The notes under the pieces were generated by a model. It did no database searches, was not told where the DNA came from, and saw only the letters and a program-made list of their open reading frames with translations. Made by a program: the position numbers and the translations under genes. Of a DNA stretch of 64,000 nucleotides, positions 1,911-7,145 are shown in pieces. Position 1 is the stretch's first letter. The number at the start of each line of letters is the position of its first letter. Source of the DNA: an uncultured Flavobacteriales bacterium (GTDB lineage Bacteria; Bacteroidota; Bacteroidia; Flavobacteriales_D; Crocinitomicaceae); contig CAJQPA010000008.1 in assembly GCA_905480145.1 (NCBI GenBank), positions 1 through 64,000 on the forward strand. Direction: 5' to 3'.

Positions 1911-3668
1911 CTATTGATAGATGGAACTAATAACAGTTGCGTACTTTTCCATAATTTTCTTACGTTTTAGTTTAAGAGTAGGTGTTAATTCACCTCCGTC
2001 AACAGAAAGTTCATTACTCAAAAGCTTTGTACATTTTAATTTCTCCCAATTACCAAAGTTTTCATTGAAATGTTCAACTTCTTCCTCCATTCTAGCGATA
2101 ACTTTAGGATTCTGGATTAATTCTTCATTGTTTCCATTTGTTTCAATTCCTTTTCTTTTTGCCCAATCGTGCAGAAATGAAAATGTAGGAACAATTATAG
2201 CAGAAGGAAATTTTTCTCCCTCACCAATGACCATTATTTGTTCAATAAATCTCGACTCTTTAAACTTATTTTCCATTGCCTGAGGAACTATATACTTCCC
2301 TCCGGATGTTTTAAAAATCTCTTTCTTTCTATCCGTTATTTTTAAATAGATTTCTTCTTGAAACTCACCAATGTCTCCGGTGTGGAACCAGCCATCTTTC
2401 ATAACTTCAGCTGTTTGTTCCGGCAAATTATAATACCCCATCATTACATTTGGTCCTTTGACGAGAATCTCTCCGTCTTCGGCGATTTTAACTTCAACAT
2501 GCTCAATTAAAGCTCCAACTGTACCAATTCTAACGCCTTTGCTAAAAGAATTAACTGAAACAACAGGTGATGTCTCACTTAAGCCATAACCTTCTAAAAT
2601 TGGAATGTCTGCCGCAAAGAAAATCCGAGCTAACCTGGGTTGCAAAGCAGCACTTCCTGAGGCGATTGCCTTAACATTTCCACCTAAAGCTTCTTGCCAT
2701 TTTGAAAAAATTAATTTTCGAGCAATTTTCAATTTGAAATTGTACCATGCAGAGCGATGAACAGGGTCATATTGTTCTGCTAAGCTAACAGCCCAGAAAA
2801 ACAATTTTCTTTTTATTCCAGTCAAATCATCTCCTTTGGCCATTATTTTATCAAAGACTTTCTCAATAAGTCTAGGAACTGCAGTAAAAACATCTGGTTT
2901 TACTTCTCGAATATTATCACCAATGGTTTCCATTGATTCAGCAAAGTGAACAGAGCAACCTAAATGCATGTATAAATAATGCAACATTCTTTCATAAACA
3001 TGACAAACTGGAAGGAAACTTAACACAACTGATCCTGCATTTGCTGGTATTGGCTCAATACAAGCCTGAGCATTTGATAATAAATTTCTATGGGATAACA
3101 TTACTCCTTTTGGATTCCCTGTTGTTCCTGATGTGTATATTATGGTAGCTAAGTCTTCGTATTTCACAGCGTCCATTCTTTTTTGAATCTCTTCAAAATC
3201 GATATCTTTTCCTTTACTTTTTAAAGCACTCCAATTTTGTTGTCCAGCAACTTCTTCCATTGTGAAGACTTCATTCAATAAAGGAAGTTTTCCTCTAATG
3301 TTTGAGATTTTTGTTGCCAACTCTTCATTCTCTAAAACACATAGATTAATTTTAGCATCGTTAAAAATATACTCATAATCACTTTCAGAAATGTTTGGAT
3401 AAAATGGAACTACAATGGCTCCAACATGCTGGATTGCCATATCCATAACGTTCCATTCATATCTAGTTTTAGATACGATGCCAACATTGTCACCAGCCTG
3501 AACACCATATGCTATTAATCCCTTAGCAGTTTCTATTACTTCATTAATAAAACCTTCGGTAGAAACTGGAATCCATTTTCCATCCGTCTTTGTAACAAAC
3601 ATTTTATCAGAAGGACAATTTTTCAATTGATGGTGCGGTAAATCAAATAATCTTTTAGATGCTATCAT
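1911..3668 (-). CDS. long-chain fatty-acid--CoA ligase (AMP-binding)
   Basis: The 585-residue protein belongs to the ANL adenylating superfamily and should activate long-chain fatty acids to acyl-CoA through an acyl-AMP. The AMP-binding loop YTSGTTGNPKGVM is at ~178-190, followed by GYGLSETSP and the GWFHTGDIGEF and ITDRKKE blocks that form the hinge and C-terminal domain. Length and the FACS-like middle region fit the long-chain group (FadD15/ACSL-like), not acetyl-CoA synthetase. It has no signal peptide or membrane segment. It is monocistronic, divergent from the sigma-factor operon and convergent with the TonB-like gene. Chain-length preference cannot be read from the sequence. Confidence 0.9.
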   Translation of the reverse strand: MIASKRLFDLPHHQLKNCPSDKMFVTKTDGKWIPVSTEGFINEVIETAKGLIAYGVQAGDNVGIVSKTRYEWNVMDMAIQHVGAIVVPFYPNISESDYEYIFNDAKINLCVLENEELATKISNIRGKLPLLNEVFTMEEVAGQQNWSALKSKGKDIDFEEIQKRMDAVKYEDLATIIYTSGTTGNPKGVMLSHRNLLSNAQACIEPIPANAGSVVLSFLPVCHVYERMLHYLYMHLGCSVHFAESMETIGDNIREVKPDVFTAVPRLIEKVFDKIMAKGDDLTGIKRKLFFWAVSLAEQYDPVHRSAWYNFKLKIARKLIFSKWQEALGGNVKAIASGSAALQPRLARIFFAADIPILEGYGLSETSPVVSVNSFSKGVRIGTVGALIEHVEVKIAEDGEILVKGPNVMMGYYNLPEQTAEVMKDGWFHTGDIGEFQEEIYLKITDRKKEIFKTSGGKYIVPQAMENKFKESRFIEQIMVIGEGEKFPSAIIVPTFSFLHDWAKRKGIETNGNNEELIQNPKVIARMEEEVEHFNENFGNWEKLKCTKLLSNELSVDGGELTPTLKLKRKKIMEKYATVISSIYQ

Positions 3669-3760: not shown

Positions 3761-3881
3761 TTGCTACCGTATGCTAATCTAAAGCCAGTGATTGTACTTT
3801 TTTAGGGTTTTTATCGGTTCTTACTGTAACAAAATCAGGTCGTTATTTGTTTTAACTGTAATCGATCTAAACATTTTTTAT

Positions 3882-4367
3882 TTGAAAAGACGCGAGTACA
3901 ATAGCATTGTAAAAGAGCATTCCAATAATTTATTTGGATATGCAATTAAATTTCTTCGAGATAGAGAAGATGCTAAAGATATTGTACAAGATGTTTTTGA
4001 GAAATTATGGATGAACAGAAATACCGTAGAGTGCGCGAAAGCGAAATCATGGATGTTCACAACTGCGCACAATGCAATGATTAATTTTTCAAACAGAAAA
4101 GGGCGGCTTCAATTAACAGATGAGATTGGAAAGTATGATAAAGGTATAAAACCACAAACTTTCGAATCTCATCAACTAGTTGAACGAGCAGTAGGTATAC
4201 TTCCGCCAATTCAAAAAAGCGTTATCTTATTAAGAGATTTAGAAGGGTATTCCTATAAAGAAATAGGAGATATACTAGATCTTTCTGATTCTCAAGTGAA
4301 AGTATATTTGTTTAGAGGTCGTAAGAAAATTAAAAAGCAGTTAAAAGGAGTGAAAGAACTTGTATGA
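3882..4367 (+). CDS. ECF-type RNA polymerase sigma factor
   Basis: This is a short sigma-70 family factor with only regions 2 and 4. Region 2 reads LFGYAIKFLRDREDAKDIVQDVFEKLW (residues listed here as a described span, core DAKDIVQDVF), and region 4 contains the helix-turn-helix GYSYKEIGDILDLS followed by SQVKVYLFRGRKK. Confidence 0.9.
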   Translation: MKRREYNSIVKEHSNNLFGYAIKFLRDREDAKDIVQDVFEKLWMNRNTVECAKAKSWMFTTAHNAMINFSNRKGRLQLTDEIGKYDKGIKPQTFESHQLVERAVGILPPIQKSVILLRDLEGYSYKEIGDILDLSDSQVKVYLFRGRKKIKKQLKGVKELV

Positions 4368-6091
4368 GTGGACCTTCATTTAAAAATATAGATCTTTGGT
4401 TGTTTGAATTGGCAGAAGGTAATTTATCTCCTGCTCAAACGGAACAGTTAGAACTTTTTTTGCTTCAATATCCTGAGATTGATGTAGATCGAGATGCATG
4501 GAATACGGCTAAGGTTCAGCCTGAAGAGTTTGCTTATCCAGATCAAGATAAATTGATTAAGAAAAGACCAATTGGTTGGTTCTACATGTCAAGTGCAGCC
4601 TCAATTGCAATACTGTTTTCATTTTTAGTTACAGATTATTCAATTACTGATAATGCAGAAAGATTTAAGTTATTATCTGAAAAGATTGAAAATACGGCAG
4701 AACTTTCGAAGTTAGAATTTAAAGTTGCTCAATTGAAGTCGCTACTTAAAGTCAATACGAATAAAACATCAATGCCTAGTTCTGAAAAGGATTTTACGGA
4801 TGATAATTCTAGTATGTCAAGATTAAGTAATAATGGCAATAAAAGAGTTTCTCGAGAAATTTCAGGTTCAATTGATGCCACTCGAGTAAATAATTCAAGT
4901 CATTTAGAAGTCTCACATGAATCCATAGAATTAATTAAGGAGATAGGGGAAACAAATAATTCCCAATCGCAATTATCTAATGTAGGTTATTCTTCAAAAG
5001 AAATTATCGAAATTGAAATAAACGATAAAAAAAGTTTTAAACGGAACATTGAAGATGTGTTGGCAAAGAAATATGAAAGAAAGAAGAAATTTCCAACATT
5101 CTTATCTTCTGATTACTCTAATTCATTTAAAAGTAAATTAAAGAAAGCTGCACGAGCATTTGAGCGTATGATGAACAATCCAATTGCATTGACTAATTAC
5201 AGAGATCCTTCGTTTCATTTACCAGGAAAGCTTAATAATGACATTAATTTTAGTTCTGCGGGAACAGTTTTGGCAACACGAGTTCAGGCCATGAGTAGAT
5301 TACAATGGTATGGTAAAGACAATGAGCAATTAATTAACCAATTGGCAGTGGATGGATATGTATACGGTATGAGAGGTGGGGTAGGTGTTCAAATAAATCA
5401 CTCGATTTATAAAAATGGAGCAATTAATGTTTCAAGTGCGGCCTTAACATATTCTCCCAAAATATCAGTAAATCGTTCAGTTTCTATTGAGCCATCAGTA
5501 AGATTCAAGATGGGTGCAAAAACACTTAACTCTTCAAAAATGGAAGGGTTTGATCAAGTAGAAATTGATAGGCAAAGTGTTTACGATTACTATAAGGAAG
5601 GAGATGCACCAATAGGAAGTGAGCTTTGGTATAAAGACTTAGGTTTAGGTTTAATGGTGAATACAAAATGGTTTTATGTTGGGGGACATGTAGACAACTT
5701 GTTTAATCATCATGATAACATGTATTCTTCTGACTTTTCAAATCAACATCGCGCATCGCACCATTTTATTGCAGTTGCAGGTACTGATTGGGTTTCTAAA
5801 GATAAGTCAATGGGAATTTCACCTTATGTTCTTTATCAGAAAAATGAGCATTTATCTGAATTATGGGCAGGAGCTAACTTTAGATATAAATGGTTCGTGA
5901 TTGGGGGAGGGATTTCTTCATTATTGGATCCAGGCGCATCATTGGAGTTAAAGTTTGAACACTTTTCTCTAAAGTATAACACTGACTATACAATGAGCGG
6001 TATGACACAGGAGAGGAATTTATCACACCAATTGACGCTAAAATTTATCGGTAAAACGAGTAGGTTTGGTAGAAAGATTTTAAATAAATAG
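4364..6091 (+). CDS. putative dual-membrane anti-sigma factor: anti-sigma-like N-terminus, TM helix, PorP/SprF-like barrel
   Basis: This 575-residue protein has three parts. Residues 1-68 are soluble and resemble the FecR-type anti-sigma start (LWLFELAEGNLSPAQTEQLE); no zinc HxxxCxxC motif is present. Residues ~70-90 form one hydrophobic helix. Residues ~92-270 are a polar, Ser/Asn-rich and charged linker. Residues ~271-575 align by eye with the next gene, a PorP/SprF protein: GGVGVQINHS against GGIGVIGMHD, FYVGGHVDNLF against FFFGGAVHHLN, PYVLYQKNEH against PNIIYQYQNG. The gene overlaps the ECF sigma gene by ATGA and ends 3 bases before PorP/SprF. The layout implies cytoplasmic sigma binding, an inner-membrane anchor and an outer-membrane barrel in one chain. 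Similar dual-membrane anti-sigma factors (Dma) have, as I recall, been reported in Bacteroides thetaiotaomicron. Confidence 0.75.
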   Translation: MSGPSFKNIDLWLFELAEGNLSPAQTEQLELFLLQYPEIDVDRDAWNTAKVQPEEFAYPDQDKLIKKRPIGWFYMSSAASIAILFSFLVTDYSITDNAERFKLLSEKIENTAELSKLEFKVAQLKSLLKVNTNKTSMPSSEKDFTDDNSSMSRLSNNGNKRVSREISGSIDATRVNNSSHLEVSHESIELIKEIGETNNSQSQLSNVGYSSKEIIEIEINDKKSFKRNIEDVLAKKYERKKKFPTFLSSDYSNSFKSKLKKAARAFERMMNNPIALTNYRDPSFHLPGKLNNDINFSSAGTVLATRVQAMSRLQWYGKDNEQLINQLAVDGYVYGMRGGVGVQINHSIYKNGAINVSSAALTYSPKISVNRSVSIEPSVRFKMGAKTLNSSKMEGFDQVEIDRQSVYDYYKEGDAPIGSELWYKDLGLGLMVNTKWFYVGGHVDNLFNHHDNMYSSDFSNQHRASHHFIAVAGTDWVSKDKSMGISPYVLYQKNEHLSELWAGANFRYKWFVIGGGISSLLDPGASLELKFEHFSLKYNTDYTMSGMTQERNLSHQLTLKFIGKTSRFGRKILNK

Positions 6092-6094
6092 AAC

Positions 6095-7060
6095 ATGAAA
6101 AAAGGACTTATTATATTATTGACATTGCTGGGTGTATTTAGTTTTGATGTAAACGCACAAGATCCTCAGTTTACGCAATTCTATGCAAATCCATTGTACT
6201 TGAATCCAGCATTTGCAGGCTCTCATGGTTGTCCTAGGTTTTCTATGAATTACAGAAACGAATGGCCAAGTTTGACTGGTAATTATGTGACTTATAGCGC
6301 TTCATATGATCAGTATTTTAGTAATATCTCAGGAGGTATTGGTGTGATTGGTATGCATGACCAACAAGGTCAAGGAACGATATATACGTCAATGATCGGC
6401 TTGATTTATTCATATCATTTGAAAGTCAATAGAAAATTCTCAATGCTTTTTGGCGCTAGGGCGGCAATGTTTAATAAATTTTTAGATTGGGATAAATTGA
6501 CTTTTGGAGATATGATAGACCCTCGCAAAGGGTTTATTTATGAAACAGGCGATGTTCCGAGAGCAGGGAGTAGATATTTCTTTGATGCTTCAGCAGGTTT
6601 TGTTGGGTACAGTAAAAATTTCTTCTTTGGTGGAGCAGTTCATCATTTGAATAAGCCGAATGAATCTATGATTGAAGGAACATCCAAATTACCAATGCGT
6701 TTTACAGGGCATATGGGAGCAGAAATTAAATTAGGAAAACAGTCAAAGTATAACAATACGACTTCTATAATGCCAAACATCATTTACCAATATCAAAATG
6801 GTTTTCAAGAATTAAGTTTAGGTACATATGTTAAGTATGGTGTCTTTACTTTTGGAGCCTGGTATAGAAATAGAGATGCATTCATATTAACTGTTGGTTT
6901 AAATACAGGGAAATTTAAATTAGGATACAGTTACGATGTTACTGTATCTAAATTAAACAATGGTGTTTCTGGAGGTTCTCATGAAGTTTCTTTAGGATTG
7001 AATTTGAATTGTAAAAAGAAACCTCAATCGTTCAGAACAATTTCTTGTCCGTCGTTCTAA
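6095..7060 (+). CDS. PorP/SprF family type IX secretion-associated outer-membrane protein
   Basis: This 321-residue protein has a signal peptide ending VNA and a predicted mature start at Gln22. The PorP/SprF hallmarks follow: QFTQFYANPLYLNPAFAGS, then LDWDKLTFGDMIDP and alternating aromatic strands ending in HEVSLGLNL. In gliding flavobacteria SprF helps export or anchor the SprB adhesin, and PorP in Porphyromonas is needed for type IX secretion; recent family work links these barrels to attachment of T9SS substrates. No SprB-like adhesin lies nearby. It closes the sigma / anti-sigma-barrel operon with a 3-base gap, so its expression is probably under that sigma factor. Confidence 0.9.
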   Translation: MKKGLIILLTLLGVFSFDVNAQDPQFTQFYANPLYLNPAFAGSHGCPRFSMNYRNEWPSLTGNYVTYSASYDQYFSNISGGIGVIGMHDQQGQGTIYTSMIGLIYSYHLKVNRKFSMLFGARAAMFNKFLDWDKLTFGDMIDPRKGFIYETGDVPRAGSRYFFDASAGFVGYSKNFFFGGAVHHLNKPNESMIEGTSKLPMRFTGHMGAEIKLGKQSKYNNTTSIMPNIIYQYQNGFQELSLGTYVKYGVFTFGAWYRNRDAFILTVGLNTGKFKLGYSYDVTVSKLNNGVSGGSHEVSLGLNLNCKKKPQSFRTISCPSF

Positions 7061-7108: not shown

Positions 7109-7145
7109 AAAAAAAAGGTTTACTCAATAGAGTAGACCTTTTTTC
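7109..7145. terminator. bidirectional rho-independent terminator
   Basis: GGTTTACTC (7117-7125) pairs with GAGTAGACC (7130-7138) across an AATA loop with one G-U pair, flanked by an A run on the left and a T run on the right. It serves the PorP/SprF operon and the convergent amidohydrolase, and overlaps the last codons of the latter. Confidence 0.85.

Follow-up and report, generated by a model that had tools for sequence, protein, structure and literature searches.

Cell-surface signalling of the FecIR type relies on a pair of sigma and anti-sigma genes that answers to the outer membrane. The report on the dual-membrane anti-sigma factors (Dma) of Bacteroides ties these proteins to vesicles and polysaccharide utilisation loci, with raised NigD1 in the case of Dma1 (PMC13088901). 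In Flavobacterium johnsoniae, a tail cysteine of SprF, a carrier of the type IX secretion system (T9SS), is bonded to Cys343 of GldK, and the carrier is thereby dragged along by the moving track (PMC12635249). A pair of an extracytoplasmic function (ECF) sigma factor and an anti-sigma factor of F. psychrophilum is tied to a promoter class serving T9SS genes (PMC9723704). For the surface input of the known T9SS regulators PorXY-SigP, the ligand is described as unknown (PMC7712824). Here we describe an ECF sigma factor operon at positions 3882-7060 of a 64,000-nucleotide stretch of DNA (the window; contig CAJQPA010000008.1, positions 1 to 64,000) from an uncultured Flavobacteriales bacterium of the Crocinitomicaceae (assembly GCA_905480145.1). 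The window is part of contig 8 of a genome of 2.44 Mb in 63 contigs. The operon harbours three plus-strand genes, for an ECF sigma factor, a 575-residue fusion of a predicted anti-sigma-like domain with a PorP/SprF-type barrel, and a free PorP/SprF protein.

We give a probability of roughly one half to the reading that the fusion is a single-chain anti-sigma factor spanning both membranes, with a T9SS carrier barrel as sensor head, and that together with the ECF sigma factor it forms a feedback that matches carrier supply to demand. Residues 1-66 would hold the sigma factor in the cytoplasm; from there, the predicted chain passes through the inner membrane as one helix and through the periplasm as a long, unconserved tether. 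The C-terminal barrel, kin of the gldJ-type PorPs and devoid of their tail cysteines, would sit in the outer membrane as a decoy carrier, which may become cargo-loaded, held by the translocon or pulled, presumably when true PorP is short. The tether would relay this state to the anti-sigma domain, perhaps by proteolysis, and the sigma factor would be freed. As its conserved promoter suggests, the sigma factor would then transcribe its own operon and so provide more PorP, along with a pair of small lipoproteins. The more specific view that the barrel is a carrier turned sensor of its own kind, a PorP-like barrel without tail cysteines that measures the amount of true PorP at work and adjusts accordingly the supply of PorP and of the two lipoproteins, is tentative, and we regard it as somewhat less likely than not.

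The AlphaFold2 model of the fusion was built from a 47-sequence alignment and has a mean predicted local distance difference test score (pLDDT) of 75.8 and a predicted template modelling score of 0.58. The barrel strands mostly reach a pLDDT over 90, and the coiled coil after the membrane helix is modelled at low confidence. Fourteen strands were counted by eye from DSSP, with one split hairpin set aside; by reading of the strand list, both the N- and C-terminus of the barrel would be periplasmic. The most hydrophobic stretch of 19 residues begins at residue 70-78 in all 47 fusions (starts 41-130 searched), with none elsewhere stronger, and the distance from the membrane helix to the barrel motif, measurable for 33 of 47 fusions, is 164-253 residues. 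The Pfam family PorP_SprF matches residues 297-561 with 69.4 bits (cut-off 22.3), and the profile-profile alignment of the fusion with PorP has a probability of 99.1% (E 6e-19). The stricter NCBIfam PorP model TIGR03519 gives 77.8 bits, which is under its cut-off of 90.55. The modelled architecture is in agreement with a sequence-only reading of the window, which had proposed a single chain from the inner to the outer membrane with one membrane helix, a polar linker of about 180 residues and a PorP/SprF-like barrel alignable by eye with the free PorP/SprF protein; the helix at residues 70-90, a variable tether of that length and a barrel at residues 306-562 are all present in the prediction.

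Median identity of the other 46 fusions to the window protein is 0.61 in residues 1-66, 0.19 in the membrane helix, 0.14 in the linker (residues 93-250) and 0.54 in the barrel, and the sigma factor has a median of 0.70. Both presumed working ends are conserved, and the tether appears to drift freely. A Foldseek search with the fusion model retrieved generic barrels such as CymD, OmpU, OmpG and FadL, and at rank 3 a chain of the T9SS translocon entry, 6h3i_F (E 9e-6); such matches inform on the barrel fold and not on function. In searches of PDB sequences, no match better than E 0.7 was obtained with the N-terminal profile and none better than 0.25 with the whole-fusion profile, and PorP gave six rows, all at E 1.5 or worse. 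The model of the free PorP shows a strand pattern similar to the fusion barrel, at a lower and modest confidence (mean pLDDT 65.2). The fusion model also has two long loops directed outwards, at residues ~389-419 and ~445-466 (topology read from the model). These loops, and an architecture that is the same as in Dma, would suit a surface receptor that binds an external ligand by its barrel or its long loops, with PorP as accessory or output; for Dma2, a glycan has been proposed in this role. We consider such a receptor very doubtful, as the ligand of Dma2 is itself hypothetical, and the loops align with those of PorP and retain some of the residues there, such as a Gly-x2-Pro motif.

The genome harbours fourteen PorP/SprF loci, several of them directly 3' of very long genes that resemble gliding-type adhesins (read by eye). 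A tree of 26 rows was calculated with eight sampled fusions and thirteen of the fourteen loci, leaving out the contig-cut copy on C30. The fusions form one clade (8/8, support 100/100), which shares one side of a supported branch (97/96) with the gldJ-type PorPs, and ten other PorP/SprF members of this genome are on the far side of that branch. The core copy of the gldJ-type PorP sits between porU and gldJ. Its identification as the porP of porPKLMN was ruled out, and the gldK-linked PorP is a separate gene. Among the adhesin-adjacent members, the PorP/SprF at L090:1450-2376 (G000:C26) likewise terminates in a tail with two cysteines (...SCPLF), which most of the paralogues in this genome lack.

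Cysteines 46, 306 and 318 of the free PorP were each present in 25 of 25 sequences. None of the 47 fusions has a cysteine in its last 20 residues, and forty of them are free of cysteine altogether. A working T9SS carrier would be expected to have a signal peptide and C-tail cysteines as in SprF; neither was found in the fusion, which starts with the N-terminal helix domain. We infer that the track would be unable to haul this carrier-like barrel, and that the fusion would be moored to the inner membrane instead, on the assumption that gldJ-type PorPs use their cysteines as SprF does.

The free operon PorP belongs to the gldJ-type subfamily as well. Its mature part shares 99.0% identity with the core PorP of the same genome, and no match in the other genomes compared exceeds 88%. 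Similarly, the two copies of one genome are closer to each other than to their best matches elsewhere in G014 (98.1%), G016 (97.7%), G020 (97.6%) and G004 (96.0%). Weaker identity was found in G021 (94.0%), G018 (93.3%) and G012 (88.3%), and G005 has an additional PorP copy at 62%. The tree of PorP copies forces at least nine label changes, and therefore the two copies of a genome group together in part of the genus. At E<=1e-60, one gldJ-type PorP is present in each of the four genomes of the genus without a detected fusion. Among the 21 fusion-bearing genomes at the same threshold, fourteen possess at least two, six possess one and G010 has none, contig breaks being one cause.

The arrangement recurs in other genomes. 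A pattern-based scan of contigs with a 20-sequence alignment as query gave 52 loci, and in 51 of them the N-terminus of the fusion was seen: 46 are intact single frames, four are cut by contig ends, and one (L064) is in pieces. The sigma gene and the fusion overlap by 4 nucleotides (nt) in 50 of these 51 loci and by 1 nt in the remaining one. A PorP gene lies 3' of the fusion in 44 of the 51 loci, comprising 23 of full length, one frame of 99 amino acids (aa; L048) and twenty cut by the contig end; in the other seven, at most 125 nt remain after the fusion. Contigs thus end within the free PorP in 20 of 51 loci, and in L055, L061 and L065 they end 113-125 nt after the fusion. A likely cause is that assemblers halt at the operon and core PorP copies, which are nearly identical to each other. 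The records of the 52 loci are metagenome-assembled genomes labelled Crocinitomicaceae, Fluviicola, Flavobacteriales or with less precise names, including two Chitinophaga pinensis, and the isolate Brumimicrobium glaciale IC156 (Crocinitomicaceae).

In a survey of 40 relatives, the fusion was found in 21 of the 25 genomes of the genus (in G019 split over two contigs) and also in G026, G033 and G034, which belong to other families. It was not found in the genus genomes G001, G003, G015 and G024. Of 150 genomes sampled from the order, 82 have a match to the profile of the N-terminal domain at E<=1e-4, and by our own count the match reaches at least 48 bits and lies in a frame of 490 residues or longer in 36 of the 150. 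The best twelve of these order-wide loci, one of which is the window, all possess a sigma gene and a PorP-type barrel, and the eleven others are all single-frame. A phylum-wide draw of 198 genomes gave eight with a match, and among their frames only that of the window exceeded 490 residues. Within the samples surveyed, the fusion is limited to this order. The probability that a frameshift or an assembly error joined two genes is negligible: one locus, L064, is broken into pieces, and this explanation is ruled out by the 46 of 51 intact frames together with the eleven of eleven further single frames beside a sigma gene. The earlier observation that one frame spans all parts holds, along with the coordinates, the frames, the ATGA overlap and the 3-base gap between the fusion (end 6091) and PorP (start 6095) given in the sequence-only reading, and the sigma-fusion-PorP order recurs in Crocinitomicaceae.

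The two-part motif TGTAAC-N16-TTGT is present before the sigma gene in 52 of 52 upstream regions (the window and 51 loci), at 47-73 nt from the start; five shuffled sets had 6-9 of 52 for their best two-part motif. Since the upstream sequences are related, the shuffles overstate the significance; the spacer is nonetheless widely different. The operon site is the sole match in the window at up to one mismatch, and one or more such matches also arose in 24 of 100 shuffles. The operon motif is also present in the other-family genomes G026 and G034, and with one change in G033. Taken alone, the motif predicts little. Reading of the open reading frames around the seven exact sites of this genome showed that those of the operon and of a lipoprotein pair are the only ones wholly outside genes; of the other five, four fall within genes, and that on C7 overlaps a gene end, ~180 nt before the next called start. 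In G018 (L172:1602-3735) an exact site lies 101 nt 5' of another PorP-family gene (Pfam 2.5e-28), followed by a gene with a match to the second domain of GldM (4e-6).

The second motif-bearing unit consists of two adjacent genes for small lipoproteins of ~125 residues (lipobox read by eye), for which no significant match to a known Pfam family was obtained. The two genes (L162:1740-2511) are distantly alike and, by reading, stand beside a pheS-like gene. All 25 genomes of the genus have the first gene of the pair. The motif is located 138-159 nt 5' of the pair in 20 of the 22 genomes not classed as fusion-less, namely 19 of the 21 with the fusion and G003, and in none of the three well-assembled genomes without the fusion (G001, G015 and G024); shuffling of the 22 produced 0.02 on average and at most 1. 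This match of presence and absence is the best evidence that the sigma factor may drive both the operon and the lipoprotein pair, and the predicted output in this genome would be small, with five genes in two transcription units. The lipoprotein pair could also be the envelope-repair output of a system in which the barrel senses general outer-membrane assembly or envelope stress, an unfolded or misinserted barrel being cleaved in the periplasm to free the sigma factor, with PorP kinship telling of origin only. Any tethered barrel would serve for this; such a sensor needs neither kinship with a PorP subfamily nor the company of a PorP, which follows in 44 of 44 loci with more than 125 nt left, and the few motif sites that precede genes here are narrow for such a regulon, so that we regard general stress sensing as unlikely.

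No motif site was found in 22 loci (209 kb) centred on core PorP copies and, in one case, gldK, a set that covers only part of the T9SS genes and takes six loci from genomes without a detected fusion. These 22 loci do not suggest a T9SS-wide regulon, and a promoter of the sigma factor ahead of core T9SS genes, as expected of a SigP-type regulator, was not found in them. The same absence from the gldJ and gldK loci examined weighs against a mechanical sensor, in which the barrel would touch the GldJ/GldK track, or a PorP riding on the track, and the tension of the tether would report gliding or motor activity. The gldJ-type kinship of the barrel would fit such a sensor, and cysteine-less SprF still interacts transiently with the track (PMC12635249). 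We hold this sensor to be rather improbable.

As for the N-terminal domain, binding of residues 1-66 to the sigma factor is suggested by the gene overlap, the modelled helix bundle and a paralogous sigma pair. Among 22 N-termini scanned, zf-HC2 matched three (best E 0.029) and DUF4880 matched one (E 0.13), neither significantly; we take both to be anti-sigma-type family names. The sigma-unrelated family BRK was matched by twelve of the 22 (best 0.0045). In the 22-row N-terminal alignment, the row of L122 starts three codons ahead of the gene start. Paralogous sigma genes are accompanied by a protein of 331-344 aa with the same N-terminal domain and no barrel at L079:3879-5361 (G000:C32) and L086:4412-5925. 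Both barrel-less proteins end in GFFLKIGK(L/F)E(I/L)SRK, and the one of L079 has no match in Pfam or NCBIfam. Two matches to the anti-sigma-like domain per frame of 359-507 residues were found in G034:C205:28482-28859, G054:C96, G070:C264, G142:C19 and others. The sequence-only reading had called the N-terminus FecR-like, and this label is unsupported, the window protein having no match to FecR or DUF4880 at E<=1. In its further proposal, the barrel would report outer-membrane or T9SS status directly to the sigma factor. Supported parts of that interpretation are the architecture, the barrel, the adjacent PorP/SprF partner, the likeness to Dma and the T9SS link, which is stronger than could be seen at the time through the gldJ-linked kinship and the 99.0% identical core copy.

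Several results weigh against the carrier-supply feedback. The N-terminus of the window protein matches no Pfam family at E<=1 and so has no significant match to an anti-sigma family, and sigma binding and expression of the operon are predictions from sequence and models. The fusion clade is on a long branch (1.19), and its place beside the gldJ-type PorPs is approximate. Operon and core PorP share only 73-77% identity in G005, G007, G008, G013, G017 and G023, and 64% in G026, and because of these seven genomes the statement that both are the same protein is limited to part of the range. The fourfold sites of the two PorP copies in this genome agree at 34.8%, as between species (35.6-37.8% against G014), and therefore the proteins are alike and the DNA is not. 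Recent gene conversion is thus unsupported here as a general cause of the PorP likeness; it is plausible in G020, where fourfold sites agree at 80.0%. The exact motif TGTAAC-N16-TTGT occurs seven times in this genome against 18 for the reversed control, and is thus not enriched. The longer motif TGTAAC-N16-TTGTNTTA has 56 exact matches in 40 genomes, 21 at the operon and 35 elsewhere, with 20 for the reversed control. Nine of the 35 non-operon matches correspond to the lipoprotein pair, and in G004 (C75) and G003 (C551) the longer motif lies ~55 nt before a related lipoprotein match. The motif of the pair is missing in the fusion-bearing genomes G017 and G019. G003 has it with no fusion found, in an assembly that is 79% complete and of about 800 contigs.

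The coordinates of the operon and of the parts of the fusion are listed in Table 1. A longer open reading frame for the sigma gene begins at 3792, and its start would fall upstream of the promoter. PorP_SprF matches residues 20-301 of the free gene with 203.3 bits. As a pattern count, the hairpin 3' of PorP is not above chance, with one found and 1.3 expected. The upstream neighbour is a divergent gene of acyl-CoA-ligase type (1911-3668), for which no NCBIfam cut-off was reached among the matches listed, and the downstream neighbour is a convergent amidohydrolase-like gene (translation read by eye).

Table 1. Predicted features of the sigma-fusion-PorP operon (positions in the window).
Feature	Position	Strand	Details
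Predicted operon promoter TGTAAC-N16-TTGTTTTA	3825..3854	+	57 nt 5' of sigma start
ECF sigma factor	3882..4367	+	161 aa, TTG start; Pfam Sigma70_r2 4e-12, r4_2 7e-17
Anti-sigma-like / PorP-barrel fusion	4364..6091	+	575 aa, no internal stop, ATGA overlap with sigma
Fusion residues 1-66, predicted cytoplasmic three-helix anti-sigma-like domain	4364..4561	+	helices 6-18, 23-35, 37-49 (AlphaFold2)
Fusion residues 70-90, predicted single membrane helix	4571..4633	+	AlphaFold2 and hydrophobicity
Fusion residues 91-250, predicted coiled coil and disordered periplasmic tether	4634..5113	+	pLDDT <50 over 131-221
Fusion residues 306-562, predicted 14-strand PorP/SprF-type barrel	5279..6049	+	Pfam, AlphaFold2, profile alignment
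Free PorP/SprF gene, operon copy of gldJ-linked core PorP	6095..7060	+	321 aa
Terminator-like hairpin 3' of PorP	7111..7144	+	fold -18.1 kcal/mol, z -7.4

Similar to FecIR, the locus has a sigma/anti-sigma gene pair. Unlike in FecIR, the operon lacks a TonB-dependent receptor, the receptor and the anti-sigma factor would be one chain, and no FecR match is present. The family of the barrel is common to the fusion and to SprF and other type B T9SS carriers (PMC12635249), and the free operon PorP has two conserved tail cysteines. The tail is Cys-X-Cys in SprF and Cys-X11-Cys in the free PorP; in the fusion a predicted inner-membrane anchor replaces the signal peptide and the tail cysteine is absent. 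In the PorA-PorXY-SigP system of Porphyromonas gingivalis, an ECF sigma factor responds to a surface-located T9SS part, and a feedback on the operation of the T9SS was proposed (PMC7712824). A secreted C-terminal-domain protein and a sensor kinase take part there, and PorX acts on SigP, whereas here one protein would suffice. PorX, a known T9SS regulator, is also encoded in this genome (827 bits against a cut-off of 300), and therefore the fusion would be an additional circuit.

In the openly licensed literature of PMC, searched by titles and starts of abstracts and with subscription papers mostly outside, none of the papers listed described an anti-sigma/PorP fusion, or a single protein that reads the T9SS at its carrier and reaches from the outer membrane to a sigma factor. 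New here are the kinship of the barrel with the gldJ-type PorPs next to a near-identical free PorP, the missing tail cysteines, and the promoter common to the operon and the lipoprotein pair.

The closest likeness is to Dma, which the sequence-only reading had named from Bacteroides thetaiotaomicron, and the predicted single-chain layout agrees with the description in PMC13088901: a sigma neighbour, an N-terminal sigma-binding region, one transmembrane helix, a long disordered tether and a C-terminal barrel. Both are from Bacteroidota. Dma, as described there, is defined beside a cognate ECF21 sigma factor, and the overlapping ECF sigma factor of this locus has its best NCBIfam match in NF058625 (PG0214/GFO_1088 ECF), with 126.1 bits slightly below the cut-off of 130. 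We would count the fusion as of the Dma kind by its modelled architecture, apart from sequence homology to Dma1, Dma2 or Dma3. Unlike the Dma of that report, its barrel belongs to the T9SS PorP/SprF family, and a free PorP stands in the operon. This suggests that the Dma layout may be a chassis open to more than one kind of barrel as sensor head. The putative input module can be identified from its sequence, as a gldJ-type PorP barrel, and the small predicted output includes a copy of the same PorP; the loop is therefore directly testable.

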